DNA of 64,000 nt, taken from Nannochloropsis oceanica. Taxonomy: Eukaryota; Sar; Eustigmatophyceae; Eustigmatales; Monodopsidaceae. Under the pieces are notes generated by a model. The model saw only the letters and a list, made by a program, of their open reading frames with translations, made no database searches and had not been told where the DNA came from. The translations under genes and the position numbers were made by a program. The DNA lies in assembly GCA_004519485.1 (NCBI GenBank), contig CP038129.1:248001-312000 (forward strand), read 5' to 3'. Positions 1 through 58,154 of this stretch are shown piece by piece. Positions within the stretch are counted from its first letter, which is position 1. Each line of letters begins with the position of its first letter.

Positions 1-375
1 CCCTTCCCCCTTCATGTGGGTGGGTGGTTGGAGAGAGAGGGCGCGAAACCCGTCCCTGACTACCCGGAGGACAGTCGCGTGGAAGGAGGGACCCCAAGCC
101 TTCTCCTCTACAGTCCGACGGGGCACCCTGAGCGAGGGAGGGAGGGAGGGAGGGAGAGAGGGGGGAAGGAAGGAAGGAAGGAAGGGAGGAAGGAAGGAAG
201 GGAGGGAGGGAGGGAGGGAGGGAGGAAGGAAGGGAGGAAGGAAGGGAGGGAGGGATGAGCCCAGGACAATGCGAAGGGACGGAAGAGAGGGAGGAAGGGA
301 GGGAGGTCCTTGTCTATCCGTCCCCTGCCATTCTTTCTCCCTCCCTCCCTCCCTCGCAAGAATAGCAGCCCATTC

Positions 376-475
376 NNNNNNNNNNNNNNNNNNNNNNNNN
401 NNNNNNNNNNNNNNNNNNNNNNNNNNNNNNNNNNNNNNNNNNNNNNNNNNNNNNNNNNNNNNNNNNNNNNNNNNN
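376..475. other. Assembly gap (100 N)
   Basis: A run of exactly 100 N, flanked by CCCT microsatellite, so it is a scaffold gap of nominal size. It falls inside the first gene, so exons may be missing here. Confidence 0.99.
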
Positions 476-929
476 ATCCCTCCCTCCCTCCCTCCCTCCT
501 TCCCTCCCTCCTTTCCTCGAGCTCTCTCACCCATCCCCCTCCCTTCTCTCCCTTCCCTTCCTCCCTTCCTCCCTCTCCATCAGGTATTGGTCTATTTTGC
601 AGTCTGTCAGAGACGAGCCTCCGCCGACACTTCCCGAGGGTGAGCAAAAGGGAGGAAGGGAGGGAGGGAGGGAGAGAGGGAGGGAGAGAGGGAAGAATTG
701 AGAGGAGAAATAGATTAGAAGAGTGTAAATTTCCTCCTCTTTTGTTCGCCCTGGCCACGCTTTCGATGCCCTCCTTCCCTCCCTCCCTCCCTCCCTCCCT
801 CCCTCCCTCCCTCCCCATCAGGCCACTGGTCCCCGCTCTTCCGCGACTTCCTCTCTCGCTTCCTCCGAAAGGATCCGGCTTCCCGCCCTTCCTGCTCCTC
901 CCTCCTCCTCCACCCCTGGCTCGAGCAAG

Positions 930-2408
930 CGCGAAGCCAACACCACAGCGGCGGCTGCGTGACTGCCGGTACGTCCTCCCTCCCTCCCTCCCTCCTTCCC
1001 TCCCTCTGCTCGACGATGTCCGCACTGTCCCAAAGTGAGAGGCTTAGAGAGACCTCACCCTCCCTCCCTCGCTCCTGCAGTCCCTCTGCACGGTGACAAC
1101 CAAACGTCCCGGGAGACAGAGGCAAAGGAAGAATTGAGAGCCATCGTTTCAGCTGTCAAAGAACACGTTGCAGGCGTCCTGAGGGAAGAGAGGTAGGGAA
1201 GGAGGGGGGGGGGAGGGAGGGCGCCGGCAGTCAAAGAAAAAAAGAGCGCGAAGGAGGGGAAAGATATAGGTAGGGGAGGAGGGAGGGTGGGAAGGGGTGG
1301 TAAGAAGGAGGAAGGGGGGGAAGGAGGGCTAGATAGAAGCATACAGAAGGGAGGGAGGGAAGGAGGGAGGAAAGGAAGCATAGGACGGAAGGAGGGAGGG
1401 AGGGAGGCAGGGAGGGAAGGAAGGAGGGAGGGCGACTCTCTTTGGCATCCACAACTCCTTTTGTCATCACTTCAGACTCTAACTTTCCCTCCCTCCCTCT
1501 CTCCCTCCCCCTTTCCCTCCTCAAGCGCCGTCATCACTTCATCGCTGTCCTCTTCCTCTTCTTCCTTCTCAGGAAGGGAGGGAGGGAGGGAGGGAGGGAG
1601 GGGTGGGCATGTCCCCCCTCCTTACCACCGTCAGTTCTCCTCCCTCGTCGTGCTCGCCAACGATGACCTCCTACAGCAACACCTCTACACCTCCACGCCC
1701 AGGGCCAGCGAGGGCCGCCGTCCCTCTCTCCCTCCCTCCCTCCCTCTCTCCCATCCTCCCTCCACCCTGAGCCCTCGTGGACATGAAGGAGAAGAAGGAG
1801 GAGGTGGAGGAGGCAAAGCTGTCCCTCCTCCTTCTCCCCCTCCCTCCGCTGTCACCACAGCCAACCCTCCTGGACTGATTTCCCAAGAAGGGGAAGACGG
1901 GAGGGAGGGAGGGGGGGAGGGAGGGCAGACGTTCTCGTTCTGTAGCCCTCCACTGTCTCCTTCTCCCTCTGTGCAGCTGTCGGCCGATAACGTGGGGGTG
2001 GATGACATGCTGAGGAAAATTCTCTTGGAGAGGTATAGAGGGAGGGAGGGAGGGAGAGAGGGAGGAAGGGAGGGAGGGAGGGAAGAAGGGAGGGAAGAAG
2101 GGAGGGAGGGAGGGGGGGGGCGGAGGGAGGAAGGAGAGGTGTACATTTTCAATTGATTCTTCTACACGACTTGATCCCTCCCTCCCTCCCTCCCTCTCTC
2201 CCTCTCTCTCTCCCTCCCTCTGTCCTTCCCTCCCAGGGGCGAGGGTCGCCTGTATGAGTTCGCGGCACAGCTTCGGATGGAACCTCGTCTCGTAGTGAAG
2301 GAAATTGAAGGAATCCTCCTCGCTGCTGCTGCCGGTACTGGTGGGGGTGGGAGCCTTTCCTCTGCCCCTCCCTTGTCATCTTCCTCTTCGTTGCCTCCTC
2401 CGTTGTAG
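930..2408 (+). CDS. 3' part of an unrecognised gene
   Basis: The start is not resolved and could lie upstream of the gap or outside the window. Phase-compatible exons on the plus strand are: one ending at 968 before GTACGT; 1081-1192 (after CTGCAG, before GTAGGG), which reads as a charged helical segment containing EAKEELRAIVSAVKEHV; a Ser/Pro-rich piece from 1635; 1977-2032 (after GTGCAG, reading LSADNVGVDDMLRKILLER across the next junction); and a last exon 2237-2408, reading GEGRLYEFAAQLRMEPRLV and then a Gly/Ser/Pro tail to TAG at 2406-2408. The last two junctions keep frame exactly (phase 2). Introns are GGGA/CCCT rich. I do not recognise the family. The pattern of short amphipathic helices with a low-complexity tail suggests a helical adaptor or regulatory protein, but nothing more. 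The tail, 1977-2408, is the most secure part. Confidence 0.5.
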
Positions 2409-3514
2409 GGGATGGGTGGTGCCGGAGGGAAATGAGGGGGGGTAAGAGGATACAAAGGTAATGATAGTGGTGGTGGAGGAGGAGGAGGTGGCGGAGGAGG
2501 AAGAGGAGGAGGATCGCTGTAGCCTTATGTGAGAATGAAGGAGTAAATTAGAGGAGAAGGAGGATTAAAAGAACGACAGGGAGGGGGAAATGGATAGAAA
2601 GGAAGAGGAGGGAAAGTGAGCGAGAAAGAGAGGAGGGAAACGTGGCGGGAAGAGAGCGAAGTGACAATAATGTGTACAGCTGTAAGATAGAGAGATATTA
2701 GGGCAATTTCAAAAAGAAGAAGTAACTCGTGTTTTGTGTCTGCTTTTATCCTTCGTGGGGGTAGTCCTCGCTCATGTACTCGTGATGAGTGCCTGGGTAG
2801 ATGAGAGAAGAGAAGGAAGGGTCCTCTGAATTCCTTATTCTTCCACTCGCTTGCCTTATGTCCTTGATTCTCTATATCCCTTATTCAGCTTAACTGTTTG
2901 TGCCCTCGTTGAGCCTGCAGGGAGGAATGCATGGGAGAGTGGGCAAGGAAGGTTTATTTCGGAGAGTTTCGGAAGCTTTTTATTTTGTCCCCCTACTTTA
3001 AGGGGTCTCTTGCTTTGTGCTATTTTTACAGTATATGACTGCGGACGTGTGTAGATAGGAGGGAATGTCTCACATTTGCGGGCTTAGTGGTGGGCTGGAG
3101 AAGCGATAAGGAGAGGAGCTCAGTCCAGAGGAGCTGCGCGCTGGAGTGAGGGACAAATTTCATTGATGGAGCACCGGAATATACCGACAGAATAGAATGT
3201 ATATAAATCATCGGTAACTGCGGTTGCATGTCCTTTTCCTCGTCTTGCAGGTCGCCTACGTGTGGTGCATAAAAGTGGAATGGCCCTACGTTCCTTCCTC
3301 GTGCTTCAAATGACCTCCTGCCTTTCCTTCCTCCCTCCCTCCCTTCCATTTCCTGTCCGCATGCATACCGACACAACGTTCCCTTCGATCACACACACAT
3401 ACGTAGAGGCACGACACAAGCATCGACGGAAACAGAGAGAGAGGACTACCAAAGGATACGCAGCCTTCAAATACGCGAGGAGGAACCATTCATTAGTATC
3501 TTCACCATCAAGGC
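2409..3514. other. Intergenic / 5' region of the Cgr1-like gene
   Basis: No exon that I can defend. It holds GGA-rich sequence near 2460-2640 and mixed sequence after that. It separates two genes on the same strand, so it should contain the terminator of the first and the promoter of the second. No TATA or other element stands out. Confidence 0.5.
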
Positions 3515-5059
3515 ATGGTAGCGGCTCCCAAGCCTGCAGCAGCAGCAGCAGCAGCAGCAGCACCAGTAACGGTAACACCATCAACAGCTTCAGCAGTAGT
3601 GGCAGGGAATGGCGAGATTAAGGGTCGGTCGGTCAGTGGCCGGTTTTGGAGGAGTGGGAACAACAAACGGTGCGTCTCGAGAGTTACCGGGAAGGAGTGG
3701 GAAGGATGCGTGCGGTGGGAGAGAGATATATTTTTGTTAATTGGAATCGAGTTGAGTGAAAAGGAGTGGGGAACAGAGAGCAAGAAAGGGGAGGAGAGAG
3801 GAAAGGAGACTAAGTCTCAATGAAAAGGGAATGCAGGACTAATGATTGTGATGGCCTCACTCATCCCCTCCCTCCCTTCTCCCCTCCCTTCTCCCCTCCT
3901 TCCCTCCCTCCCTTTCTTCCTTCAGAGCCTCCACCCTCATCACCAAGACCAACCCCAAAACTCTCTCGACCTCCTGGGAACAAAAACTGGCCATCCGAGA
4001 ACGAGCCAAGTTCGTACCCTCCCTCCCTCCCTCCCTCCCTCAGTCCCTCCTTCCCTCCCTCTCTTCTCTTTCCACCTCACCAATAGCTGATCCTCATGCT
4101 TAAACCTCTCCTTTCTTTCCTTTCCCCCTCCCTCCAAGGGCCGTAAAGGAGCGCCAGCAAGAGATGCGTGATGAACGAAGGGCAGATATCGATGTATGTA
4201 CCCCTTCCCTCCCTCCCTCCCTCCCTCCCTCCCTCCCTCCTCCCTGTCCCTTCCTTCACTTTCTCCCTCCCTAAAACCCACTCACACTTCTCCCTCCATC
4301 TCTCCCTCCCTCCCTCCCTCCCTTTCTTCCTCCCCTTCCTAAAGAAAAAGAAGCTCGAGCGCGAGGAGCGGCTGAAGAGGAGGATGGAAAATGAGTTCAA
4401 GACTAGCACGTACCAGATGGTGAGGGAGGAAGGGAGGAAGGGAGGGAGGAGGGAAGGGATGAATCGGGTCATCGTACTTTTTCTGTCGTTTGAGCGTAGA
4501 TGAACAGGGAGGGAGGGGAGAGAGGGAGGGAGGGAGGGAGGGAGGGAGGGAGGGAGGGAGGGAGGGAGGGAGGGAGGGAGGGACCAATGAGCGGGAGGAT
4601 GGAAAGCGTCTTACCAACACAAAGAAACACTCAATTTTAATCTTTTTCCCTCCCTCTCTCCCTTCCTTAGATCACCAAGACCGAGAAGATTAAGGCCATG
4701 AGCAAGAAGCAGCTTCGACAGATCAAGAAGACTCAGGTGAAGAAGGGAGGGAGGGAAGAGGAGAGGGAAGAAAAGAGGGAGGGAGGGAGGGAGGGAGGGA
4801 GGGGCCGCTCAGGATAAAGAGGGGCCAAGAAATCAAGAAACAAGAGACGGAAAAAGAGGGGGGGGAAATCGACTCACCTGCTTTCCCTTCCCTTCTTCTG
4901 TCCCTCCCTCCCTTCCTCCCTCCCTCCCTCCCTCTGTAGATGAACCGCATGGGCCAAGTGGAGCTCGTTTCGCCGTGGCAAGATCCGCGGAAGGTCGGGA
5001 GGGACGGGAAGCCCGTGCCCAAGGAGTGGGTAAAACGAGGAGGAAAGAAGAAGCTCTAA
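3515..5059 (+). CDS. CGR1: Cgr1/CCDC86-family rRNA-processing protein
   Basis: Six exons join in frame: 3515-3669, 3926-4009, 4139-4193, 4345-4419, 4671-4736 and 4940-5059 (stop TAA), giving 184 residues. Exon 1 begins with an Ala-rich stretch (a CAG/GCA run) and then reads SVSGRFWRSGNNKR, matching the SGRxWK...KKR entry of the Cgr1 domain. Exon 2 has TSWEQKLAIRERAK, the conserved TSWxxKM core. Exons 3-5 are Lys/Arg/Glu-rich coiled coil, including EERLKRRMENEF and MSKKQLRQIKKTQ, equivalent to the LKRRLENE and KKKQLRSI segments of human CCDC86. The family is nucleolar and acts in pre-60S rRNA processing (established for yeast Cgr1). A C-terminal extension ending in GGKKKL is lineage specific. 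Splice sites are GT..AG; the second donor (GTTCGT) is weak but needed for frame. Three introns start with sense GGGA tracts or end in CCCT tracts. Confidence 0.92.
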
Positions 5060-6467
5060 GCTACCTCGCACCCGCCCTTGCTCCCTGCTCGGGTGACGTG
5101 TGTGCCCTTTCGTTCTTCCCTCCCTCCCTCCCTCCCTCGCCTGCCGAAAAAAGGGGGGGAAGTCGAACTCCTACGTAAGAGAATGAGACGGCGGGAAGCA
5201 CATGTGAGAGCTAGAAGAAAGAAACGGAAAGCAAAGCAAAGAAAATTAAATTTAAACGACTTGTACTGCTTCTTCTGATTCGATTTTCTTCTTTCGGTGA
5301 CCTCCAGATCATTCTTGTGGGTGTTGTGTCGCTCATGACTTCTCTTCAATTCTCTATTCTCCTGTCCCGCCATTTTTCACCGACTGGTCAGAGCTTTCGA
5401 ATGAGATGAGATGAGATGGGATGGGATGTTTTGAGTGAATCTGTAGAATGTTCTGGGGAGAGTCGATCCCCCCGAGTGATAATGGATGGTCTTGCCTCTC
5501 TTGGATATGCTGCTGCTGCTGATGCTCCGCTCCTGTTGTTGCTTACCCATTCATTCTTTTTCGTCTTCAAGCAGCTTCGGACTTCTTCTTCTTCTTCTTA
5601 ATGTTCTTCTCTTTCTTCTTCTACTTCTTCTGGTTCTTCTTCTTCTCTTTCTTATTTTTCAAATCCCTTACAACGCATGAACATGTGGCATCGTCCATTT
5701 TCAGAAAGGAGAAAGAAAAAGGATACCATCCATCTCTCCCTCCTTCCCCCTCCCCTGCCTTTCTCGAAGAAAAAGGGCAGGCGGAGGTAGCAGAATGGAC
5801 GGAAGGAGGAAAAGAGGAGGAATGAAAGACAAGGTGCGTCACAATCGCGAACCACCCTCTTTTCTTCTAGTCCTCCCTCTCTTCTTCTCTCTTTCCCTCT
5901 CGACGATTCTTGTTTGTAATATAGACACACGTATGAACAAGCGGAGGGCCTCGCCCTCCTTCCCTCCCTCCTTCCGTCCCTCTCTCCCCACACCCATCAT
6001 ATTTGTTTTGAAAATAGAGGGGCAGGAAGCGAGGGAGGGAAGGGGGACGGGGAGGATGGGGGCTCCTCTACCTAAATTTTTGTGCGGGCGAAAATGACGC
6101 ATTGAGAGGACAACATGCAAGAGGAGAGGAGGGCGGGAGGGGAGGGAGGGAGGGGAGAAGACGGGGGGAACGGATAAAGATCACAGCTCTTTCTCCTTTT
6201 TCCTCTCCCTTTTTCTCTTCACTTCTTCCCTCCCTCCCTCTCCTCCTTCCTCGGTGAAATGGAGGCGTGACGTGGATAAACTAAATAAAGAGATGACTGC
6301 GGTAGCAGCTGCTGCTGCTGGAGATCCTCCCTCCCTCCCTCCCTCCCCCTGCCCCCAGCCTCCTTCTCCTCATCCTCTCTCACAGTGTGTGTAAAAGAGG
6401 AAGGGGAGAGAGGGAGGGAAGGTGAAAAGGAAAGAGGGGGGAAAGATGACTCCTTATCTGTCTTTCT
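5060..6467. other. Convergent intergenic region
   Basis: Lies between the 3' ends of the plus-strand Cgr1-like gene and the minus-strand repeat-exon gene. It contains simple repeats (TTC runs near 5585-5650, CCCT and GGGA tracts, GCTGCTGCT near 6305-6320). No conserved coding segment is seen in any frame. Long uninterrupted frames here are Ser/Pro/Gly/Arg products of the microsatellite. Confidence 0.5.
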
Positions 6468-8854
6468 CTACGGTTCTCCCGCATTCCCTTCCTCTTTCCC
6501 TCCCTTCTTGTCGTCAATCTCGCGCACGGCCTCCTTTTGGACGTTGGCCTTTTCCATCACAGGGGCCTGATGGACGGAGGGAGGGAGGGAGGGAGGGAGG
6601 GAGGGGGGGGAGGGAGGGCGCACGGGTAAAAAGATGAGGAGATTGGGAGCGAGATGGGGAGGGAGGGAGGGAGGGAGGGAGGGAGGGAGGGAGGGAGGGA
6701 GGGGGGAATAGAGAGAGGGCAGGTACGTACCTGCTTGCCTCCGGGGAGACGGAGAGGATCCTTGGCGCCTTCAACAGGGCCCTGGGAGGGAGGGAGGGAG
6801 GGACGGAGGAGGGGGGGGTGAGGAGGTTAGGATAAGATTTAGACAAGTGATACAGAAGAGGGAGGGAGGGAGGGACGGAGGGAGGGATAGAGGGCAAGCA
6901 CGTACCTGCTTGCCTCCGGGGAGACGGAGAGGATCCTTGGCGCCTTCAACAGGGCCCTGGGAGGGAGGGAGGGAGGGACGAAGGAGGCGGGGGGAGGAGG
7001 TTAGGATAAGATTCAGACAAGTGATACAGAAGAGGGAGGGAGGGAGGGACGGAGGGAGGGATAGAGGGCAAGCACGTACCTGCTTGCCTCCGGGGAGACG
7101 GAGAGGATCCTTGGCGCCTTCGACAGGGCCCTGGGGGAGGAGGGAGGGAGGGACGGAGGAGGGGGGGGTGAGGAGGGTAGGATAAGATTTAGACAAGTGA
7201 TACAGTTGAGAGAGGGAGGGAGGGACGGAGGGAGGGATAGAGGGAAAGCACGTACCTGCTTGCCTCCGGGGAGACGGAGAGGATCCTTGGCGCCTTCGAC
7301 AGGGCCCTGCGAGGGAGGGAGGGAGGGACGGAGGAGGGGGGGGTGAGGAGGTTAGGATAAGATTAAGACAAGTGATACAGAAGAGGGAGGGAGGGAAGGA
7401 GGGAGGGAGGGATAGAGGGCAAGCACGTACCTGCTTGCCTCCGGGGAGACGGAGAGGATCCTTGGCGCCTTCGACAGGGCCCTGGGAGGGAGGGAGGGAC
7501 GGACGGAGGGAGGGAGGGACAGAGAGAGGGAGGGTGAGATAAAGACAGATGACACGGAAGAGAGAGGGAGAGGAAGAGGGCAGGTACGTACCTGCTTGCC
7601 TCCGGGGAGACGGAGAGGATCCTTGGCGGCCTCTTCCGGGGCCTTAACCACTATAGGAGAAGTCTTTGCCTGCCGGGGAGAGAGGGAGAGATGGAGGGCG
7701 GGAGGGAGGGCGGGGGGGGGGATGTGAGCAAGTAGAACAGAGTGCAGGATGATAGGAACGGAGGGAGGGAAGGAAGGAGGATTCACACTTACTTCGACGT
7801 AGCCTTGGTTCTCCTCCTTCACGAGCTCGGGGGAGATGGGGGCGAGTGCGCGGTTGGACAGACCTGGGAGGGAGGGAGGGAGGGAAGGAGGGAGGGAAGG
7901 AGGGAGAAAGGAGGGAGGGTGAGCTGGAGCACGGACATGTGGAAGTAGGAGAAGAAAAAAGATGTAGACGCATCCATGACGAGAACAGGGGGGGGGATAA
8001 GAAGGGTAGAAGACGGGAAGGGAGGGAGACAGGCAAGCAAGTAGGGGAACAGGGGAAGGAGGGAGGGAAAGAGGGAGCAAAAAAAGGGAGAGACGTACCT
8101 CGCACTCGCCGCCCGCTATTCTCTCGGTCATCCCCATGATGGGGGAAGTACGCTAAAGGAGGCTCTTTTAATGCACCCGCGTCACCGTCGTCAAGAAGGA
8201 GGGACTGCACGGGGAGGGAGGGAGGGAGGGAGGGAGGGAGGGAGGGAGGATGAGTGTGGATTGCTTGTATGGTAGAAGATATTGAAGGTTGTTCACTGGA
8301 CAAGAGGGGCGACGAGTGGAAGAGGGGAAAGAAGGGAGGGAAAAGTGATGGAGGGATGGAGGGCCGGGAGTCGTGGTAAAACAGAGAGAGAATGAAGGGG
8401 GCGGCACTTGCGCTGAAAAGGGGGAGACCTTTCTCTTTACCTTCCTCCTAGTTTTCCCCTCTATTCTTTCCTCCTCACACATACGCAGAGGCACACACGA
8501 GCACTCATAGACATTTGCACACACAATTTTCATGCCTGTGCTATAGCTTTTCCTCCTCTCTTTTTGTCTTACGAGATTTTCTCCGTATCAGGCAATCCCC
8601 GACTCCCTCGCTTCGAGGGAGTGTACCCTTGTCATGCTGGTGCAAGCCACGCACCACAGTCCTCCTCCGTCTCTCTCTCCCTCCCGTGCACATACACATA
8701 CACCCACATGTAGTATTACTGACAAAATTAGACGTACCTCACTAGAACCACGGAGAGCACTGCCATCGACGAGGACGGAAGAAGACGAGAACAGGAAGAC
8801 GCACACGAAGACAAAGGAGGCACCGGCAGCGCCACGCGGCGAAGGTTTTTTCAT
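6468..8854 (-). CDS. Secreted protein with six 17-residue repeats, one exon each
   Basis: Ten exons (minus strand) join without a single frame conflict: 8854-8738, 8204-8099, 7863-7793, 7669-7592, 7481-7431, 7306-7256, 7130-7080, 6956-6906, 6781-6731 and 6566-6468 (stop TAG), 241 residues. Exon 1 is a textbook signal peptide: MKKPSPRGAAG, then the hydrophobic core SFVFVCVFLFSSSSVLV, with likely cleavage near VDGSA. The mature part is acidic/charged, then exon 4 ends in APEEAAKDPLRLPGGKQ, followed by five exons of exactly 51 bases. Each of these encodes GPVEGAKDPLRLPGGKQ and has phase 0 at both ends. The last exon is charged and ends GNAGEP. No known domain is recognised. Low hydrophobicity and repeated Pro/Gly/Lys suggest an extended secreted or wall-associated protein, which is inference. 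Donors are mostly GTACGT. Confidence 0.87.
6710..7632 (-). repeat. Tandem exon-intron repeat array, period about 175 bases
   Basis: Five nearly identical units of a 51-base exon plus about 125 bases of intron, with a sixth more diverged unit at 7592-7650. Introns share the GTACGT donor, the GGGA tract and the same AT-containing core (the minus complement of GATAAGATTTAGACAAGTG). Exon copies differ only at synonymous positions (for example GTT/GTC before GAA), so expansion looks recent and under protein constraint. Confidence 0.93.
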
Positions 8855-10640
8855 CCAGGGGGGGAAGAGACGCAGGCTTGTGGCTTGGCGGTAAGCAAGC
8901 AGGTGATAGTCTTGTCTGTGCGTGTAAGTGTGGGCCACGCGGGGATTAGAAGAAGTGTGTGAGCTGTTGCCGTGTTGGAAGGGGGAGCGAGGCGTCGGCA
9001 GAGAGATATAACATCACGGATGAGTTGGATTGGGTGTTGGACGGGTGACACTTAGATGGGAGCACCGCACACGTCAATATGTATGCCGGCATCATTCATT
9101 AGGCTGAAGCCCGTGTGGATGAGGAGCATGCTTGCTGAGTGTTGGGGGCTTGGAGCGTGAACGAGAATGAACGCGTGTGCAAAAGCGAAGACGATGACCG
9201 AGTTTTTATTATTTTCAAGACACAACATGTAGCGACAGTTTTCGACCCTGCATGGCAACTTAACCTCTGAAACCATAAGTGAAACAAATGGCGAGGTACT
9301 TTTCACAGTTGGGAAGTCCAACCCCATGACGATAAGGTCAGATCCGCGCGGTCCCGCGGGACAGGAAGAAAAAAAGTTGAGAAAGCGACTCCTGAGGAGG
9401 GAGTGTGCCAACTGCACGCCAATGCAAGAAAGTCGGGCAAAGTGGTGGTTGATCCCGCTCAGCACCAGCTGCGAGGGGAAACAAAGCGCGAAGTCGGGAC
9501 ACACGGGAAGGAGGCGTGACCCTGACATACTCCCAGTTGTTTAGGTGTGTCGGTGGTGTGGGGGCGTGGTATGGCCACGGGATATGAGGACATTCGAGGG
9601 AGGCGGGGGGGGCGAATCAAAGATTCATCGCGTTATTTCAGACCCCTCGCTTTGGATGCAACAGATGGCCCACAAGATAGCGAGGCTTGGCTTGGGCATA
9701 TGGAAGGAAAGGCAAGTTTAATATACAAGCAGCATAGGTAGTGACTATATAAGGTAATCGAAGACAAGGACAGGAAGGATGGACAGTAGGCTAAGGGCCC
9801 TTTCAGGCAAGGCGTACGTGGTTGCATGAGGAGGGGGCGTGGCGGCCTTCCCTTCCCTTTTCTGTGCATTTCCCCCCCATAAGCTGTAGATTGACTACTT
9901 TACGGTTCACAAGAGGAAGGTTTGAGCTGACAATCTCCGTAGCAATGATCATACTGCGACCTTTTTTTTTTTGGCGGAGTCTTTTTTCCTTCAATGTTAC
10001 ACAATGTGGAGCCTACCCCTCGCGATGAAACGCTTGCTTTTTATTATTATTTTTTTTCTAACCTCCAAGACCTTATGCTGCTTATGGGGGCTCACCACTG
10101 AATGGAATTCAATAAATGAACCAACAAAAATAAAAAGAGAGGATAAAGACGACAACCTCGATTTCTTTGCTTCTCTTGCATCCACCGTGCGTGCTTTCGC
10201 TTCTCATCTTCATTTTCTCTTCCACTGGCTCGTCGCGTTATTAAAAGTTGTGTTTTCTTCGTTTAGTGCGTGCCACGGCTGTGCTGTTGCTTGTGGTATT
10301 TTTCTTTCGTTTCCTGAGTTTTCCTGGCTGTGTTGTTGCTGTTGTTGTGAGTTACTCTCTCGTCTTTTCGTGGGTCGACGTTTCTCTCTCCTTGTCGCTA
10401 TTGCCTCCACCTCCTGTTGGGTTCTGTTCATACACTATATGAATATCGTTTACATTTAATATACACACGTGCAGACATCCATGACAATTTCCTCTTGTTC
10501 AAAGGCCTGCACGATACCACTCCATTCCTTGATCAATTTCAATGATCTCCTGGGAGTACGAACACTTGTGCCACATTCGTCTCCTTTCCCTTCTTCCGTC
10601 CCTTCCTCCCCTCCCTCCCTCCCTCCCTCCCTCCCTCCCT
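8855..10640. other. Intergenic region
   Basis: Upstream of the repeat-exon gene and downstream of the signal peptide peptidase, both on the minus strand. It is free of the GGGA microsatellite between about 8900 and 10580, unlike the flanking introns, and has poly-T tracts at 9963-9972 and 10047-10057. An open minus-strand frame at 9052-9528 lacks any recognisable motif and I do not call it. Confidence 0.45.
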
Positions 10641-10975
10641 CCGTTCTCACACAAGCGATGCCAACGGAAGCATCCCCCTCTCACACTCCGTCTCGGGCAC
10701 CAGCACCATTGACCCCTCCTTCTCTCCCTCCCTCCCGCCCGCCATCCCTCCCTCCTTCTTCCCCTTCCTCCCTTCCCCCTCCTCCTGCCCTCCTTCCACC
10801 CCCATCACCGTCCCAACACCCCAAGACAATATCCTCTTCCTCCCTCCCCCCCGCCCTCCCTCCCTCCCTCCCTCCCTCCCTTTCTCTTCCTGCCCGTCGC
10901 TTCCATTTTCTTGAGGGCCGGAATCGAGGGCAGGAGGGAGGAAGGGAAGGAGGGCAGAGCTGGCGTCGAACTCAC

Positions 10976-11553
10976 CCGACCAGAGCTGGGAGAGATGAGG
11001 GGAGTCACGCCAGGCCTAGGGAGGGAGGGAGGAGGGAGGGAGGAGGGAGGCAGGGAGGGAGGAGGGAGGGAGGGGAGGAGGGGTGGGAGGGAGGGACGGG
11101 AGGATGGCAGGGAGGGAGGGAGGGAGGGAGGGAGGGAGGCAGGGAGGGAGGGAGGGTAGGGAGGGGAGGGAGGCAGGGAGGGAGGAGGGAGGGAGGGAGG
11201 GAGGCAGGGAGGGAGGGAGGGAGGGAGGGAGGCAGGGAGGGAGGGAGGGAGGGAGGGAGGGAGGCAGGGAGGAGGGAGGGAGGGAGGGAGGGAGGAAGGG
11301 AGGGAGGGAGGGAGGGAGGGAAGGGGAGAGGGAGGGATGGAGGGAGGGAGGGGAGGAGGTAGGAGGGAGGGAGGAGGGAGGGAGGGAGGGAGGGAGGGAG
11401 GGAGGGAGGGAGGGAGGAGGGAGAGGCAGGGAGGGAGGGAGGGAGGGAGGGAGGGAGGGAGGGAGGGAGGGAGGGAGGGAGGGAGGGAGGGAGGGAGGGA
11501 GGGAGGGGTTAGTCACGTGTGTGAGAGAGAGAGACACAGAGAGAGAGACACAC

Positions 11554-11584
<31 letters not shown>

Positions 11585-14472
11585 GCACACACAGAGAGAG
11601 AGAAACAGAGGACAGAGAGAGAGAGACAGAGGTGGGGAGGAAGAGAGGGAGAAAGGGAGAGAGAAAGGGAAAGGAAGGAAGAGATGGAGGAAGAGGAAGA
11701 AAGCGGGAAGGAAAGATGGAGGCAGGCATGGAGGGAGGGAGGGAGGGAGGGAGGGAGGGAGGAAGGGCTTGCCTTCATTCCCACGGGGCCCATCATGCAA
11801 GGCACGAGGTAGAGGAGGACGGGTTGGGCTATGTTGAAGAAGCTGGGGGAGAGAGGGAGGGAGGGAGGGAGGGACGGAGGGACGGAGGGACGGAGGGACG
11901 GAGGGAGGGACGGAGGGGTAAGAGGGAGATGACGGGGCAGACAAACGTCATGGGGGAGGAGGGAGGGAGGGAGGGAGGGAGGGAGGGAGGGGTAGGAGGG
12001 GACGTGGGAGACAAACAGATTTGGGAGGGAGGGAGGGAGGGAGGGAGGGAGGGAGGACGCACCGTGTACAGAAGAGGGCCATGCACATGCCAATGACATA
12101 GCCGACCAGGCCCGTGGAGAAGTAGGAGTAGGAGGAGGGCTGGAGGGAGGGAGGGGTGGAAGGCTGGAGGGAGGGAGGGCAGGGTGAGAGGGTGAGGTGG
12201 TGGTAGGTTGATGCAAGGAGAGGGAGGGAGGGAGGGAGGGAGGCAGGGAGGGAGGGCCGAGGGAGCGATCAGAGCATTGTGAACAGTGTATGTACGAGGG
12301 AGGAGGGAGGGCGGGAGGGAGGGAGGGAGGGAGGGAGGGAGGGAGGGAGGGCTTACCTTGCTGATGGTGGCTTTGAGGAAATCGTCGAAGGATAAAAGGA
12401 AGGAGAGGAAGAGGCCCGGAATGGCCATGTCGCCTGAGGGAGGGAGGGAGGAAGGGAGGGAGGGAGGGAGGGGGGTGACACTGAATGAAGAGTAGACGTA
12501 GAGGGGGGAGAGCAGCAATGGGGAAGAGGGCGAAAGGGAGGGAGGGAGGGAGGGAGGAAAAGAGGACAGAGCCCAAATGATAATCAAGATCGACATAAGA
12601 CAGAACAGAGAAGAGGGAGGATGGGAGGGAGGAGGGGAGGGAGGGAGGGAGGGAGGGGCTTACGTACGCACCTAGGCCCAACATGCTATAGGCGAGTCGG
12701 TCGTGGTGGGGACCGGAGGGGTAGTAAGGAAAGAGCAGCTTCAATGGGAGCTAGAGAGGGAGGGAGGGAGTGAGGGAACGGTCAGAGAGGGTCCATGTTA
12801 GAGAGGAAGGAAGAGAGGGAGGGAAGGAAGGAAGATCAGTGAGGCTGATCTGCGGGAGAAAGGAAGGGAGGGAGGGAGGGAGGGCCTACCTGCAGAGAAG
12901 CAGGGGCGTTCTTGAGGAGGGGGAGGTGGAGGGCTTCTCCCATTGAAGCCGCTGGATTGAGGGCGGCTTTCGTGGCCACCTGAGGGAGGGAGGAAGGGAG
13001 GGAGGGAGGGAGGGATGAGCCAAACGTGGAGAGAGAGGCATGCCTCGGTGGGTCGTCTCCTTCCTTCCCTCCCTCGTCACCTCCACCATGACGTTGGACC
13101 CGAAGACAGAGGCGGAGAAGAACACCCTGGGAGGAGGGAGGGAGGGAGGGAGGGAGGGAGGGAGTCATTACGACAATTCTTCGGATAAGGAAAGGAGCGA
13201 AGGAGGGAAGGAGGGAAAGAGGGAGTGGGGGAGGGAGGAAGAGAGGGAGGGAGGGAGGGAGAGCTTACCAGAAGATATCGTAGATGAAGAGAGAGCCCAG
13301 GCAGAGGGCGGCGATCTTGGGAGGGAGGGAGGGAGGGAGGGAGGGAGGGAGGGAGGGAGGGAGATGGTATCAGCAAACAATGGATGGAATGTACTGCACG
13401 ACATTGACCGTTTCTCCCTCCCTCCCTCCCTCTCTCCCTCTCTCCTTCCCTCCCTCCCTCTCTCCCTCGCTTCTTACCCTCAGGTTAGGCAGATGCAGGA
13501 AGGAGATCATGGACACGCACAGACAGGCCCCCAGGGCGTTGTTGAGGACGTAGTGGCCTGGAGGGAGGGAGGGAGGAGAGGAAGGGAGGGAGGGAGGGAG
13601 GGTCGATTTGATGATGAAAAAAATCTGGAAACAAAAAGAAACCTGCCTGCACCCCTCTCTCCTTCCCGCCCTCCTTCCCGCCCTCCTTCCCGCCCTCCCT
13701 CGGCACCTGTCATGAGCCAAGCCAGGAGCAGGCCCCCGGCCACTGCCCCCACCACGCCTTGCTGCTGCCTTCGACGTGGACATAGCGGGTGAAGCATTCG
13801 GCCACAGGGGGCGGCGAGGACGAAGAAGAGGGAAGCGAAGGAGGCGGCGAGCATGTAGAGGAGAACCAGCAGTTGCAGGTGGCTGCAGAGGGAGGGAGGG
13901 AGGGAGGGAAGGAGGGAGGGAGGGAGGGAGGGAGGGAGGGAGGGAGGGAGGGAGGGAGGGAGGGAGGGAGGGAGGGAGAGAAGGAGAGTGAGTCAGACGA
14001 AGATACTGAAGCCCCCTCTTTCTCCACCTGTGAAAAGGAAGTACACTTTATGAATCGATGTATTTATACAATCAATTATGTACACCCACACGTTACAATC
14101 ACATACAAATATTACTTACGCACAGAATGAGACTGCTGGGCAAGAGCGTAAGCACACCCCGCTCCCTGCTTCCGTCCCGAGAGGAAAGTCTCAGGGAGGG
14201 TGACAGAGAGGGAGGGAGGAGGGAGGGTCGTACCTGAAGAGAAAGTAAAATGTGCACAACAGCAGACTGCCCGCAACAGGCATCAGCAAGGCGCTCCGTG
14301 CGCTCAGGACCACGTTCTGTGCCTGTGTCTCCTCTGCAGCTGCCCCTCCCCTCCTCTTGTTGGCTGCCATCACCTTCTTCACATCTCGATGACGCATTGC
14401 ACCCACATAACACACGAAAGTTGAAGATAGAATGGTAGGCAGACCCGCCCAAATGAACCAGGGCCAGTCCAT
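10976..14472 (-). CDS. SPP: Signal peptide peptidase (presenilin-type aspartyl protease)
   Basis: Intramembrane protease of the ER. Eleven exons on the minus strand are in phase: 14472-14234, 13882-13707, 13557-13478, 13315-13269, 13126-13081, 12979-12890, 12750-12672, 12433-12357, 12139-12063, 11842-11773 and 11015-10976, about 340 residues; the C-terminal exon after GTGAGT (10975) is not resolved. The start MDWPWFIWAG lies in the first membrane segment. Catalytic motifs are visible: FIYDIFW (first Asp), LGLGDMAIPGLF (second Asp, split by an intron inside the Gly codon) and the substrate-docking motif QPVLLYLVP, where the family normally has Pro-Ala-Leu. FWVFFSASVFGSNVMVEVATKA matches the segment after the YD helix in shorter pieces. 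The intron after 11773 appears to use a GC donor (GCAAGC). Length and order match eukaryotic SPP (HM13) rather than presenilin. Confidence 0.92.
11020..11512. repeat. Dense GGGA microsatellite block
   Basis: About 490 bases of almost pure GGGA with occasional GGCA and GGGG interruptions, followed to about 11640 by GAGA/CACA-type sequence. It lies in the last large intron of the signal peptide peptidase gene. The G-rich strand has the form needed for many stacked quadruplexes. Confidence 0.95.
13891..13978. repeat. GGGA microsatellite in intron 1 of the SPP gene
   Basis: About 22 units of GGGA directly next to the exon 2 acceptor. On the coding (minus) strand it is CCCT and supplies the polypyrimidine tract. 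Confidence 0.9.
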
Positions 14473-16995: not shown

Positions 16996-18768
16996 CTACA
17001 TAAGACACGCTCGTCCATCAGGCGACACGCGCGAAATGGTAGACAGAGGGTCTTCGTGGCACATTACGCAGACAATGCCCTGCATCCCGTTTGCGAGCGT
17101 CATCCGGACAGATACATATATACCGGGGTTGTCGGTGACAACACGACAGCGTAGCCGTTCCACTTTCCCGACCGACTTGAAGGCGGAGACCGCAGTGAGT
17201 GCCCTGAACAGCGCCATCTTATCTTCCGGGTGGACAATATTCCAGAAGCTGGACCCCACCAGCTGCGCGGGCTCAGCGTGAAGGATGCATCGAGCGGTCT
17301 TGTTGATGTACAGCACCTGGCTCTGAATGTCGGGGGAGATGACACATATCATGTCCGGCGCATCTTCAACAATGTTCTTGTACATTTCCATGCGACTCAC
17401 GTCCTTGTGCAGGTCACCATGCAGCCGGCTGCACCGGTAGCGAGACAAGCGATTGTACATGAGTGCGCGAACCTTGCGTCGCTCCACCTTCTCCTCTGCC
17501 GTTAATCCCGACAGGTCCTCTTTCCTTGCTCGTCGCTGCTTCTCTGTGCTCTGATGTAGATAAAGAACGAGTGAATGGAGACAAACAAAGAGTGAGTTCC
17601 CAACAAAGGTTGACAAAAGACGCATACACCATGCTCATATTTCTCTTTTCTCTTACCGGAAGATACTTTCCCATGATCTTGGAGTATCTGCCCGATAGTC
17701 GTCCCACCGAAACACCCATCACACCAGCTCGAATCTCCTGCAGCAGCAGAGGGGTCTCGCTCAGCGGTGCAATCGGTGGATAGATCTTGGCTTCCACGTG
17801 CTCGGTGGTGAGCGGTAAGTCGTTCATAGAAAAGCACTTGGTCGACGCCATCATATGCTGCTTTTTAGTTGGCTGCATTTGGCATTGTAGGAAGTAATGA
17901 AGCTGCAGTGGTAGGTGACTTTGGTTGAAATACTGCTGGAGCTGGTGGTGCTGCTGTGCTAGAAAAGACGGCGAGGCCTGGGAGAGTACCTTGGTCATCT
18001 TATCATCCAGGATAGCATGCTGATGAATGGCCGACGGGTGAAACTGTTGCTGGTACTGGGTCAGAAAGGATTGCAATGATTTGTCGACCATCTGCTTCTG
18101 AAGTTCTAAGGTTGTGTGTGAGGGGGGGGGGTATGTATGTATGTTGAAGTGAGCGTGCGCGCCTACGAATAGATGCCTTGTATGTAGCTGGTGCGCATGT
18201 AGATGCTTTTGTGTGACTCGGGGCGGGATATACCTGTGTATATATTCTTTTTGCTTACAATGTCGTAGAAGCATTTGTCAGAATGCTGGTGGCCAAACAC
18301 ATAATGGCGACGGGAAGATGAAAAATGAAAAGATGAAAAAGAAACATCATGCGGAGTGTGTCGTACACGTACGCTTCCATGTACAAGGCCACGTACAAGT
18401 CGGGGGATGGTGTATGTAGCAGACAGATCAGGAGAATGTGTACATACGAGGCATAGAGGAGGCAAGTTGGGGAATAATGGGCACCAATCGCCTTCCAAAA
18501 ACGTACCATGGTTCGCTGCTACGAGAGAAGAGGCCCAAGACGAGGGGTAACACGGCGTGGAGACGGGAAGCGGGTCAGCAGCGGCAGAGAGTGTTGCTAG
18601 GCTGAACAGGGCTGCCGCGCCGCCATGTGCCTTTTTCTCGTCCAAGTCGACAGAATCCTTCATTCCGTGGAGGCAGTCGCGCTGGCTTTGGTCCCGCCGC
18701 TGCTCAGCAGTGGGACCAAAAGCCCCGATATCCTCTCGAGAATACGAACACGTATAAGCGAATGTCAT
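16996..18768 (-). CDS. Gln/His-rich basic-region PAS protein, copy A
   Basis: Three minus-strand exons, all in phase: 18768-18507, 18105-17657 and 17550-16996 (stop), 421 residues from the ATG at 18768. Exon 1 is a variable acidic/Ser-Ala region with KKAHGGAAALFSLATLS. Exon 2 is Gln/His-rich (LTQYQQQFHPSAIHQH, AQQHHQLQQYF) and ends GVSVGRLSGRYSKIMGKYLP. Exon 3 starts STEKQRRARKEDLSGLTAEE, followed by a basic stretch ERRKVRALMYNRLSRYR that resembles a bZIP basic region without an obvious leucine zipper, then a PAS domain (VEDAPDMICVISPDIQS to GMQGIVCVMCHED). The LOV flavin-cysteine motif is absent, so it is not an aureochrome photoreceptor. A nuclear regulator is likely by inference. In-frame ATGs at 18813 and 18909 exist; the latter is inside satellite DNA, so I chose the ATG shared by all copies. 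Confidence 0.85.
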
Positions 18769-25194: not shown

Positions 25195-26945
25195 CTACAT
25201 AAGACACACTCGTCCATCAGGCGACACGCGCGAAACGGTAGACAGAGGGTCTTCGTGGCACATTACGCAGACAATGCCCTGCATCCCGTTTGCGAGCGTC
25301 ATCCGGACAGATACATAGATACCGAGGTTGTCGGTGACAACACGACAGCGTAGCCGTTCCACTTTCCCGACCGACTTGAAGGCGGAGACGGCAGTGAGTG
25401 CCCTGAACAGCGCCATCTTATCTTCCGGGTGGACAATATTCCAGAAGCTGGACCCCACCAGCTGCGCGGGCTCAGCGTGAAGGATGCATCGAGCGGTCTT
25501 GTTGATGTACAGCACCTGGCTCTGAATGTCGGGGGAGATGACACATATCATGTCCGGCGCATCTTCAACAATGTTCTTGTACATTTCCATGCGACTCACG
25601 TCCTTGTGCAGGTCACCATGCAGCCGGCTGCACCGGTAGCGAGACAAGCGATTGTACATGCGTGCGCGAATCTTGCGTCGCTCCACCTTCTCCTCTGCCG
25701 TTAATCCCGACAGGTCCTCTTTCCTTGCTCGTCGCTGCTTCTCTGTGCTCTGATGTAGATAAAGAACGAGTGAATGGAGACAAACAAAGAGTGAGTTCCC
25801 AACAAAGGCTGAGAAAAGACGCAAGCACCATGCTCATATCTCTCTGTTCTCTTACCGGAAGGTACTTTCCCATGATCTTGGAGTATCTGCCAGGCAGCCG
25901 TCCCACCGAAACACCCATCACACCAGCTCGAATCTCCTGCAGCAGCAGAGGGGTCTCGCTCAGCGGTGCAATCGGTGGATAGATCTTGGCTTCCACGTGC
26001 TCGGTGGTGAGCGGTAAGTCGTTCATAGAAAAGCACTTGGTCGACGCCATCATATGCTGCTTTTTAGTTGGCTGCATTTGGCATTGTAGGAAGTAATGAA
26101 GCTGCAGTGGTAGGTGACTTCGGTTGAAATACTGCTGGAGCTGGTGGTGCTGCTGTGCTAGAAAAGACGGCGAGGCCTGGGAGAGTACCTTGGTCATCTT
26201 ATCATCCAGGATAGCATGCTGATGAATGGCCGACGGGTGAAACTGTTGCTGGTACTGGGTCAGAAAGGATTGCAATGATTTGTCGACCATCTGCTTCTGA
26301 AGTTCTAAGGTTGTGTGTGAGGGGGGGGGGTATGTATGTATGTTGAAGTGAGCGTGCGCGCCTACGAATAGATGCCTGGTGCGCATGTAGATGCTTGTGT
26401 GTGACGCGGGGCGGGATATACCTGTGTATATATTCTTTTTGCTTACAATGTCGTAGAAGCATTTGTCAGCATGCTGGTGGCCAAACACATAATGGCGACG
26501 GGAAAATGAAAAATGAAAAGATGAAAAAGAAACATTATGCGGAGTGTGTCGTACACGTACGCTTCCATGTACAAGGCCACGTACAAGTCGGGGGATGATG
26601 TATGTAGTTGATCAGGAAAATGTATACATAGAGGCATAGAGGAGGCAACTTGGGGAATAATGGGCACCAATCGCCTTCCAAAAACGTACCGTGGTTCGCT
26701 GCTACGAGAGAAGAGGCCCAAGACGAGGGGTAACACGGCGTGGAGACGAGAAGCGGGTCAGCAGCGGCGGAGAGTGTTGCTAGGCTGCACAGGGCTGCCG
26801 CGCCGCCGTGTGCCTTTTTCTCGTCCAAGTCAACAGAATCCTTCATTCCGTGGAGGCAGTCGCGCTGGCTTTGGTCCCGCCGCTGCTCAGCAGTGGGACC
26901 AAAAGCCCCGATTGGAGAATGAGAACACGTATAAGCGAATGTCAT
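25195..26945 (-). CDS. Gln/His-rich basic-region PAS protein, copy B
   Basis: Three in-phase exons on the minus strand: 26945-26690, 26304-25856 and 25749-25195 (stop), 419 residues. Compared with copy A it lacks two codons in exon 1 (SHSPIGAFG instead of SYSREDIGAFG) and differs at scattered residues (RKIRARMYN for RKVRALMYN; VGRLPGRYS for VGRLSGRYS; last residues RVCLM). Same basic region followed by a PAS domain; no LOV cysteine motif. The reading frame is complete and most differences are conservative, which argues that both copies are or were recently functional. An alternative upstream ATG lies at 26990. Confidence 0.85.
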
Positions 26946-38776: not shown

Positions 38777-40547
38777 CTACATAAGACACACTCGTCCATC
38801 AGGCGACACGCGCGAAACGGTAGACAGAGGGTCTTCGTGGCACATTACGCAGACAATGCCCTGCATCCCGTTTGCGAGCGTCATCCGGACAGATACATAT
38901 ATACCGGGGTTGTCGGTGACAACACGACAGCGTAGCCGTTCCACTTTCCCGACCGACTTGAAGGCGGAGACGGCAGTGAGTGCCCTGAACAGCGCCATCT
39001 TATCTTCCGGGTGGACAATATTCCAGAAGCTGGACCCCACCAGCTGCGCGGGCTCAGCGTGAAGGATGCATCGAGCGGTCTTGTTGATGTACAGCACCTG
39101 GCTCTGAATGTCGGGGGAGATGACACATATCATGTCCGGCGCATCTTCAACAATATTCTTGTACATTTCCATGCGACTCACGTCCTTGTGCAGGTCACCA
39201 TGCAACCGGTTGCACCGGTAGCGAGACAAGCGATTGTACATGCGTGCGCGAATCTTGCGTCGCTCCACCTTCTCCTCTGCCGTTAATCCCGACAAGTCCT
39301 CTTTCGTTGCTCGTCGCTGCTTCTCTGTGCTCTGATGTAGATAAAGAACGAGTGAATGGAGACAAACAAAGAGTGAGTTCCCAACAAAGGCTGAGAAAAG
39401 ACGCAAGCACCATGCTCATATCTCTCTGTTCTCTTACCGGAAGGTACTTTCCCATGATCTTGGAGTATCTGCCAGGCAGCCGTCCCACCGAAACACCCAT
39501 CACACCAGCTCGAATCTCCTGCAGCAGCAGAGGGGTCTCGCTCAGCGGTGCAATCGGTGGGTAGATCTTGGCTTCCACGTGCTCGGTGGTGAGCGGTAAC
39601 TCGTTCATAGAAAAGCACTTGGTCGACGCCATCATATGCTGCTTTTCAATTGGCTGCATTTGGTATTGTAGGAAGTAATGAAGCTGCAGTGGTAGGTGAC
39701 TTTGGTTGAAATACTGCTGGAGCTGGTGGTGCTGCTGTGCTAGAAAAGACGGCGAGGCCTGGGAGAGTACCTTGGTCATCTTATCATCCAGGATAGCATG
39801 CTGATGAATGGCCGACGGGTGAAACTGTTGCTGGTACTGGGTCAGAAAGGATTGCAATGATTTGTCCACCACCTGCTTCTGAAGTTCTAAGACTGTGTGT
39901 GTGGGGGGGGGGGGTATGTATGTATGTTGAAGTGAGCGTGCGCATCTACGAATAGATGCGCTGCATGTAGCTGGTGCGCATGTAGACGCTTGTGTGTGAC
40001 TCGGGGCGGGATATACCTGTGTATATATTCTTTTTGCTTACAATGTCGTAGAAGCATTTGTCAGCATGCTGGTGGCCAAACACATAATGGCGACGGGAAA
40101 ATGAAAAATGAAAAGATGAAAAAGAAACATTATGCGGAGTGTGTCGTGCACGTACGCTTCCATGTACAAGGCCACGTACAAGTCGGGGGATGGTGTACGT
40201 AGTTAATCAGGAGAAGGTGTACATAGAGGCATAGAGGAGGCAAGTTGGGGGATAATGGGCACCAATCGCCTTCCAAAAACGTACCGTGGTTCGCTGCTAC
40301 GAGAGAAGAGGCCCAAGACGAGGGATAACACGGCGTGGAGACGGGAGGCGGGTCAGTAGCGGCAGAGAGTGTTGCTAGGCTGCACAGGGCTGCCGCGCCG
40401 CCGTGTGCCTTATTCTCGTCTAAGTCAAGAGACAACGAATCCTTCATTCCGTGGAGGCAGTTCGCGCTGACTCTGGTCCCGCCGCTGCTCAGCAGTGGGG
40501 CCAAAAACCCCGATTGGAGAATGAGAACACGTATTAGAGAATGTCAT
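38777..40547 (-). pseudogene. Basic-region PAS gene, copy C, exon 1 frameshifted
   Basis: Exons 2 (39886-39438) and 3 (39331-38777) are intact and in phase, and encode the same Gln/His-rich, basic and PAS parts (RKIRARMYNRLSRYRCNRLH). Exon 1 between the shared ATG (40547) and its donor (exon end 40285) is 263 bases, one more than a multiple that keeps phase. An extra T in the GTTCGCGCTGACT stretch near 40460 shifts the frame. The upstream ATG equivalent to 18813 also meets a stop after nine codons. Either translation starts downstream (for example ATG at 40504, which restores the frame) or the copy is dying. Host gene, so called a probable pseudogene. Confidence 0.65.
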
Positions 40548-52263: not shown

Positions 52264-52344
52264 AGTATTAAGGGCTACCTCAACGAGCCCGACAAGAATT
52301 ATGTCCTGGCCATTGGTGGGCTCGTTGAGGTAGCCCTTAATACT

Positions 52345-52467
52345 TCATTGGTCTTTGCTCGCCCTGACCACGTCGACAGCCTTGATGGAGGTTAGGGTCA
52401 ACGTTGGCTGAGCTGCCGCGAGGGCGAGTGTGATGCCAAAGGCAAGCAGAAAAAGGGCGCGACACAT
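52345..52467 (-). CDS. Small secreted peptide, hairpin right arm
   Basis: Same 40-residue frame as the left arm, on the minus strand, and repeated at 56570-56448 in the next unit with a single Asp-to-Asn change (SKNQ). Conservation of the frame across copies is not independent evidence because the copies are young. A strong signal peptide is the main argument. It could also be the first exon of a longer gene. Confidence 0.5.
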   Translation of the reverse strand: MCRALFLLAFGITLALAAAQPTLTLTSIKAVDVVRASKDQ

Positions 52468-53863: not shown

Positions 53864-53865
<2 letters not shown>

Positions 53866-53927
<62 letters not shown>

Positions 53928-53950
53928 ACACAGACACACACACAAACAGA
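53866..53950. repeat. CA dinucleotide repeat, U1
   Basis: About 35 CA units with CAGA interruptions. U2 (57962-58040) is uninterrupted and U3 (61490-61551) is shorter. Confidence 0.95.
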
Positions 53951-54062
53951 TTGCATACACCAGATGGCCCATCACTCCTTCTCAATCATGACCGCGACAT
54001 GATGCATCTCAAACCCGTTTCTTCCCACAAGGGAGCGGGACCAGGCCAAGGTATGTGGTTAC

Positions 54063-56394: not shown

Positions 56395-56447
56395 CCAATG
56401 GCCAGGACATAATTCTTGTCGGGCTCGTTGAGGTAGCCCTTAATACT

Positions 56448-56570
56448 TCATTGGTTTTTGCTCGCCCTGACCACGTCGACAGCCTTGATGGAGGTTAGGG
56501 TCAACGTTGGCTGAGCTGCCGCGAGGGCGAGTGTGATGCCAAAGGCAAGCAGAAAAAGGGCGCGACACAT
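56448..56570 (-). CDS. Small secreted peptide, U2 copy
   Basis: MCRALFLLAFGITLALAAA signal peptide and a short tail ending RASKNQ. Single copy here: the mirrored partner seen at 52141 is absent. Confidence 0.5.
   Translation of the reverse strand: MCRALFLLAFGITLALAAAQPTLTLTSIKAVDVVRASKNQ

Positions 56571-57959: not shown

Positions 57960-57961
<2 letters not shown>

Positions 57962-58040
<79 letters not shown>
57962..58040. repeat. CA dinucleotide repeat, U2
   Basis: About 39 uninterrupted CA units. Confidence 0.95.
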
Positions 58041-58045
<5 letters not shown>

Positions 58046-58154
58046 ATTGCATACACCAGGTGGCCCATCACTCCTTCTTATGACCACGACATGATGCATC
58101 TCAAACCCGTTTCTTCCCACAAGGGAGCGGGACCAGGCCAAGGTATGTGGTTAC

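Follow-up and report, generated by a model that had tools for sequence, protein, structure and literature searches.

Five 51-nt phase-0 exons encoding one identical 17-residue peptide form a tandem array in a predicted gene of the alga Nannochloropsis oceanica

In the eustigmatophyte Nannochloropsis oceanica, a minus-strand gene is predicted to carry five consecutive exons (exons 5-9) of 51 nt each, all of them in phase 0-0 and all encoding the identical peptide GPVEGAKDPLRLPGGKQ. The window, by which we mean the whole stretch of 64,000 nt that was analysed, corresponds to C30:248001-312000 of a 386,095-base contig, and the gene lies in it approximately 130 kb from the nearer contig end. The best reading of this arrangement, and one that we consider probable though by no means certain, is that of a young tandem duplication array of exon plus intron in a single-copy nuclear gene, whose founding exon may have been chimeric, which subsequently grew by unequal exchange and which is spliced in full. 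The features of the gene model, in window coordinates, are as follows.

8738..8854, minus strand: exon 1, 117 nt, with the start codon and a signal-peptide-like N-terminus (approximately residues 1-33); ends in phase 0; same residues in VYU27_010133 (see below)
8099..8204, minus strand: exon 2, 106 nt, phase 0-1, contains RRVR (residues 71-74)
7793..7863, minus strand: exon 3, 71 nt, phase 1-0
7592..7669, minus strand: exon 4, 78 nt, phase 0-0, 27 nt of its own followed by a diverged 51-nt unit (7642-7592)
7431..7481, minus strand: exon 5, repeat unit 1, 51 nt, phase 0-0
7307..7430, minus strand: intron 5, 124 nt, near-identical to introns 6-8
7256..7306, minus strand: exon 6, repeat unit 2, 51 nt, phase 0-0
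7131..7255, minus strand: intron 6, 125 nt, near-identical to introns 5, 7 and 8, without their CTAAC
7080..7130, minus strand: exon 7, repeat unit 3, 51 nt, phase 0-0
6957..7079, minus strand: intron 7, 123 nt, near-identical to introns 5, 6 and 8, length divisible by three, in-frame stops absent
6906..6956, minus strand: exon 8, repeat unit 4, 51 nt, phase 0-0, GTT variant
6782..6905, minus strand: intron 8, 124 nt, near-identical to introns 5-7
6731..6781, minus strand: exon 9, repeat unit 5, 51 nt, phase 0-0, GTT variant
6468..6566, minus strand: exon 10, 99 nt including the stop, its first 9 nt (6566-6558) matching the unit start at 7/9
6683..7570, minus strand: tandem array of the 175-base exon-plus-intron unit, extent according to TRF, 5.1 copies with 92% matches

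Spliced together from 8854 to 6468, the ten exons yield a single frame of 726 nt, which comprises 241 codons and a stop, and all nine introns begin with GT and end with AG. The preliminary description of this DNA, which had placed a gene at 6468..8854 and had staked its interpretation on a frame that joins the repeat exons, is thus upheld on both points, exons 5-9 being joined in frame by the ten-exon model. The predicted N. oceanica protein VYU27_010133 from NCBI (P0001 in our searches) equals exons 1-5 residue for residue and stops at the last codon of exon 5. Its record is marked partial and is located on a contig of 3,687 bases, and it therefore comes from another assembly; as it is itself a gene prediction, its agreement lends the splice sites of exons 1-5 no more than predicted support, and short reads would be expected to break off at the array. 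In the non-repeat exons, the GC content by codon position is 0.69, 0.45 and 0.63. A scan of 8700-9300 for bacterial-type promoters was set aside because the host is a eukaryote.

The array is well beyond chance (TRF score 1467 for the 175-base unit), and its exonic part is almost invariant: exons 5-9 differ at a single site, position 9, which reads C, C, C, T and T in the five successive units and represents a synonymous change of Val between GTC and GTT, the GTT variant being common to exons 8 and 9. The last 51 nt of exon 4 match the unit at 45 positions; the final 33 are identical and the preceding 18 match at 12. Introns 5-8 share 92-98% pairwise identity and start with GTACGTGCTT(G/T)CCCTCT, whereas introns 4 and 9 have their first 17 nt, GTACGTACCTGCCCTCT, in common. 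Intron 4 (110 nt) is 80-82% identical to introns 5-8 with 18-21 gap columns; intron 9 (164 nt) scores against introns 4-8 with z values of 5.8-7.9 over shuffles, to be compared with the 3.6-4.8 that the unrelated-looking intron 3 attains from CCCT repeats alone. When only non-repeat cores are considered, introns 4 and 8 prove to be related (their score is reached by 3 of 2000 shuffles), whereas the core of intron 9 shows no likeness beyond chance to that of either intron 4 (1708/2000 shuffles reach the score) or intron 8 (225/2000). The preliminary description, as far as it concerned five 51-base exons with an identical peptide, the equivalence of one repeat with one symmetric phase-0 exon, and an amplification of “five to six times” in which exon 4 would hold a diverged founder repeat, agrees with these results. 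Its further statement that each exon has its own near-identical intron holds for introns 5-8 and fails for the diverged introns 4 and 9.

All units have the same donor, AAGCAG/GTACGT (the slash marks the splice junction), and their acceptors are either CCAG or GCAG. A CTAAC, which we take to be a branch-point-like motif, is found at -48/-49 in introns 5, 7 and 8, and intron 6 is the only one of introns 5-8 to lack it. When units 5-8 are aligned, each counted as exon plus intron, variation is seen in 1 of the 51 exon columns and in 13 of the 123 intron columns without gaps (Fisher p = 0.07), and between exons 4 and 5 none of the 33 positions differs, as opposed to 19 of the 108 aligned positions in the introns that follow them (p = 0.007). 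These figures point, though not strongly, to constrained exons or to gene conversion acting locally. As a separate observation, nearly the whole array including its introns (6771-7643, minus strand) is open for 290 codons in one frame, with the units falling in different frames; this is because the CCCT introns hold few stops, and prokaryote-style gene finders would therefore call false ORFs there.

How could such an array have come about? We propose that the 17-residue motif was multiplied by tandem duplication of a 175-base unit composed of the 51-nt phase-0 exon and an intron. The founding event may have been a tandem duplication that spanned one phase-0 intron, with one breakpoint in each of the flanking exons. 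The new exon would then be a chimera that begins as exon 10 does (GPV) and finishes as exon 4 does (EGAKDPLRLPGGKQ). Such an exon is symmetric because both of its sides are copies of the same intron, and a chimeric origin would hence account not only for the symmetry of the unit but also for the 27 nt by which exon 4 exceeds it. In a fixed register, the 7/9 match between the beginning of exon 10 and the unit start is equalled by 18 of 11,720 9-mers that follow YAG and reached by 9 of 1,308 control 9-mers situated behind a pyrimidine tract; as a whole, the chimera accounts for 47 of the 51 nt, a value attained at 25 of 11,709 control sites, whereas exon 4 by itself accounts for 45. Four free local alignments involving exon 4, exon 10 and the unit start did not rise above shuffles (313, 1532, 771 and 345 of 2000), so that the case for a chimera is that of the fixed-register test, which was chosen after them. 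The core of intron 9, which has no detectable kinship to the cores of introns 4 and 8, speaks against it, and it is also conceivable that exon 10 begins with the remnant of an old unit that has decayed. Judged by these matches, a chimeric founding exon appears moderately supported.

A plainer history, tenable though in our opinion rather improbable, would have the 51-nt end of exon 4 copied with the surrounding intron, an acceptor gained at its first codon and no part contributed by exon 10. It draws on the same agreement between the end of exon 4 and the unit and, in addition, on the first 15 nt, 9 of which match exon 4 in the fixed register, a value that 1 of 194 control 15-mers preceding GCCAAG reaches; however, since exon 4 is longer by 27 nt, a new acceptor would be required exactly at the unit start, and the first 9 nt of the unit fit exon 10 (7/9) better than they fit exon 4 (5/9). 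In our model, further copies would have come from unequal exchange between units, a process that the long intronic CCCT tracts would have favored, with the end introns 4 and 9 keeping older sequence while the inner introns 5-8 were homogenised. Old ends enclosing a homogenised middle are the pattern expected from unequal exchange. Of the two sources of length variation named in the preliminary description, splicing and unequal crossing-over, the latter thus looks the better supported, judging by the pattern of the units. N. oceanica is described as asexual in its genome paper (PMC6610115), and if that is so, the exchange would take place between sister chromatids. That the copy number is an artefact of noisy long reads we consider barely credible. 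The genome was indeed assembled with Canu from PacBio reads and some of the differences between units sit in C-runs, but private substitutions separate the units, and passages of PMC6610115 give a mean raw read of 4.3 kb, well above the array of about 0.9 kb, a coverage of about 113-fold and polishing with Illumina data.

With the favored model of exon-plus-intron duplication, the array would normally be spliced in full, and its copy number would vary between strains rather than between transcripts. It is quite unlikely, in our judgement, that the array is instead a minisatellite inside one long intron reaching from exon 4 to exon 10, with exons 5-9 never used, or that the transcript is non-coding altogether. 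In its favor, a comparison of codon usage failed to separate the three frames (mean log RSCU -0.015, -0.064 and -0.014 for frames 0, 1 and 2, with two ORFs only as the reference), and a protein search based on 5-residue words found no homologue outside N. oceanica. Five units nevertheless keep their GT, their AG, their frame and an identical peptide while their introns vary, the predicted protein VYU27_010133 includes exon 5, and pyrimidines make up 48-64% of exons 1-9 and 27% of exon 10 versus 80-88% of introns 2-9 (intron 1 has 53%).

The opposite possibility is that the array is used as a splicing dial, in which near-identical sites allow any donor to pair with any acceptor, such that one allele would give rise to an exported ladder of proteins with 0-5 repeats. 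All 32 subsets of exons 5-9 indeed stay in frame and yield six lengths from 156 to 241 aa in steps of 17, which bears out the earlier statement that copies can be “gained, lost or skipped without frame damage”; the donors of all units are identical and their acceptors nearly so, and the missing CTAAC of intron 6 is a possible weak spot. The polyubiquitin gene UBC is an example of a gene with such a ladder (PMC10809524). On the other hand, frame safety is a by-product of the duplication itself: it follows from the fact that a phase-0 exon was duplicated and needs no selection. UBC, moreover, uses AGGT as donor and acceptor, whereas the acceptors here read AG/GGCC. A survey of 65 species (PMC6142364) reports significantly increased exon skipping in bilaterians only, and intron retention is believed there to prevail in non-animal eukaryotes; the term “stramenopile” is absent from its main text, and the survey may therefore not bear directly on the group to which the host belongs. 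Taken together, we regard the dial as very unlikely, and slightly less credible again is its extended form, in which stochastic pairing of identical splice sites would create a ladder of 0-5 repeats in every cell and the CCCT-tract introns would reset the dial between strains. Intron 6 (7255-7131, minus strand) is a candidate weak spot, should skipping of a unit occur at all. Introns 2-9 are free of in-frame stops, and since introns 3 and 7 (123 nt) are also multiples of three, retention of either would add to the protein rather than truncate it. Alternative splicing in N. oceanica under changing CO2 is covered in a review (PMC12702839), the relevant parts of which contain nothing on the array gene.

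The predicted protein of 241 aa has a mass of 25.0 kDa and a pI of 8.8. Its hydropathy peaks at 2.83 for residues 12-22 and does not exceed 0.77 in any window starting after residue 40; an AlphaFold2 model of VYU27_010133, calculated from the single sequence and therefore weak, has a mean pLDDT of 56 and contains residues 7-23 as its sole helix of at least 4 residues. Both are in keeping with the signal peptide that had been noted at the N-terminus beforehand. There is one cysteine, located in the leader, and no N-glycosylation sequon. Dibasic or RxxR sequences occur only at residues 2, 71 and 229 and nowhere in the array, the only RxxR being the RRVR encoded at 8111-8100, a possible furin/Kex2-like site. 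The product is thus probably a small, basic, exported and disordered protein with a length-tolerant basic repeat region, and our guess would be that the repeats serve as a length-tolerant linker or as a surface-binding region.

Being “secreted”, as was originally suggested, is only one of the fates that such a leader allows: in algae with secondary plastids, plastid-targeting presequences can open with a signal peptide. A plastid or endomembrane destination, with the leader as the first half of a bipartite presequence, is nonetheless unlikely in our estimation. The likely cleavage site, GSA/LRGSS by eye, would place a Leu at +1, a residue that is tolerated at this position for plastid import in related algae, but the stretch after the leader (ESLLLDDGDAGALKE) is, again by eye, acidic and unlike a transit peptide.

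The protein is an orphan. It has no match at E <= 1 in Pfam, and hence no LRR domain was found in it, none at E <= 1 in NCBIfam, and none at E <= 10 among PDB sequences. In protein searches, for which shared 5-residue words were needed and only the best candidates were scored, such that a diverged relative could slip by, the full-length protein retrieved VYU27_010133 as the one match among 7,996 scored candidates, and a version with a single repeat retrieved two among 135, namely the same protein and P0002, which consists only of exon 1 read into intron 1 and is located on two contigs. A stop-free read-through frame of the array gave no match at E <= 1e-5 among 7,990 scored candidates. These results are in line with the earlier suggestion that the repeat belongs to no described family, and the search for its relatives, which the preliminary description had called for, returned none from outside N. 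oceanica at this level of sensitivity. In the genome itself (29,264,788 bases in 32 contigs), no second locus was detected for either the repeat or the rest of the protein; a DNA search produced 145 matches from the 40 scored of 443 candidates, and those off the locus seem, by eye, to involve chiefly the CCCT-rich intronic portions of the query sequence. In the 29.26-Mb genome, the donor pattern AAGCAGGTACGTN{2,8}CCCTCT occurs six times, each time within the array gene, and the units therefore did not come from another surviving locus. Among the matches listed from the open-licence literature, including those on exon arrays or on splicing in Nannochloropsis, the gene is undescribed, and within the same matches we found no earlier tandem exon duplication array from a eustigmatophyte, a finding that speaks for that literature and not for everything in print.

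The surroundings of the gene are rich in tracts. Positions 1-14000 of the window contain 60 tracts of at least four CCCT/GGGA units (42.9 per 10 kb), whereas 20 sampled loci of the same genome contain 24 such tracts in 200 kb (1.2 per 10 kb), which makes this region a GGGA/CCCT tract island approximately 36 times denser than the sampled loci; the role of the tracts in exchange is, as it stands, a correlation in one island. TRF was run on the window plus these 20 loci of 10 kb, which were taken from four contigs (264 kb in total, about 1% of the genome), and revealed five arrays with a period of at least 60, three of them in the window. Outside it, a 135-base repeat with 19.2 copies at 98% is contained in an intronless open frame of 2,885 codons (L041 2410-5018, i.e. 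C7:102410-105018), and locus L026 has a 690-base repeat with low-complexity frames. In this small sample of about 1%, exon-plus-intron arrays look uncommon in the genome. Large direct duplications are likewise frequent in the remainder of the window. Three gene copies (16996-17625, 25195-25824 and 38777-39406, minus strand) are about 95-96% identical over 2.6-3.2 kb and encode a PAS domain (Pfam PF00989, E 3e-8 to 7e-9) preceded, by eye, by a bZIP-like basic stretch; near 45077-46288 there is a diverged inverted copy with about 80% identity. Direct duplications of about 4.1 kb with 98% identity occupy 52318-56385 and 56421-60473, and part of a third copy lies at 61143-62859.

What makes the locus valuable is that it offers a clean, recent-looking snapshot of the birth of an exon array, in which 50 of 51 exonic bases agree across five units, the end introns have diverged, and a possible trace of the chimeric junction behind the first exon may have been preserved. 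N. oceanica has few introns, with 2.87 exons per gene according to PMC6610115, and in an intron-poor alga that is described as asexual, the locus is suited to measuring both the copy number between strains and the skipping of identical exons in a protist.

Several known systems invite comparison. In Kex2-type repeat precursors (PMC6339444), repeat peptides are cut apart, and we rejected a reading of our protein as a peptide precursor because none of its three dibasic or RxxR positions falls within the array. Collagen genes have exons of 54, 45 and 36 nt, and the parts of PMC4838654 that describe them also report a peak of 17-residue exons with its largest cluster in PF06758 proteins; short symmetric exons of whole codons and an extended or disordered product are common to these systems and ours, but membership in the collagens is ruled out by a unit that is without Gly-X-Y, by identical exons of 51 nt and by the lack of any Pfam match. 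UBC, for which PMC10809524 describes dual-specific splice sites and shows the transcript ladder, demonstrates that a protein repeat can equal an exon in in-frame copies, and its AGGT recalls the AG/GT of the donors here. In UBC, however, the repeat itself serves as intron or exon and AGGT as both donor and acceptor, whereas here pyrimidine-rich introns of 110-164 nt separate the units. Dual sites of the UBC type were thus rejected, given the AG/GGCC acceptors of the units and given that none of introns 4-9 has a length that is a multiple of 51 or 175.

Similar in the predicted nature of the product are the nematode epicuticlins such as Asu-EPIC-1 (PMC9612446), disordered exported proteins in which a signal peptide (here a signal-peptide-like start) is followed by tandem repeats and for whose repeat number unequal crossing-over has likewise been suggested; their repeats, however, have 49 or 51 residues with tyrosine motifs (GYR, PF02756) that do not occur here, and the analogy is functional only. 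Similar to the proposed founding step is intron gain by tandem duplication in potato, where duplication across an intron-exon boundary builds splice structure from existing signals, except that a new intron results there, whereas here a new chimeric exon would have arisen between two copies of one intron.

Parallels in probable origin are the LRR genes of Tetrahymena and the caerulein and magainin genes of frogs. The former, as PMC6564038 relates, carry exact 90-bp phase-2 exons, tens of thousands of them in thousands of genes; like our array, they come from a protist and combine one exact exon length, a uniform phase and young, homogeneous units, and unequal crossing-over has been proposed for them, but what we see here is one gene with five exons of 51 nt in phase 0 and no known domain. 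The latter, in the account of PMC3899252, contain several tandem-duplicated exons for nearly identical peptides, much as our gene does for identical ones, yet they are precursors of separate peptides, and no dibasic cutting sites stand between the repeats here. The likely origin of the array would therefore resemble that of both, while the gene is a member of neither family. In general terms, consecutive homologous exons of equal length and phase with one variable site (exons 5-9), separated by introns that are themselves homologous (introns 5-8) and flanked by the diverged introns 4 and 9, make this a member of the general kind known as tandem exon duplication arrays, and what it illustrates is an established route of gene growth rather than a new system.
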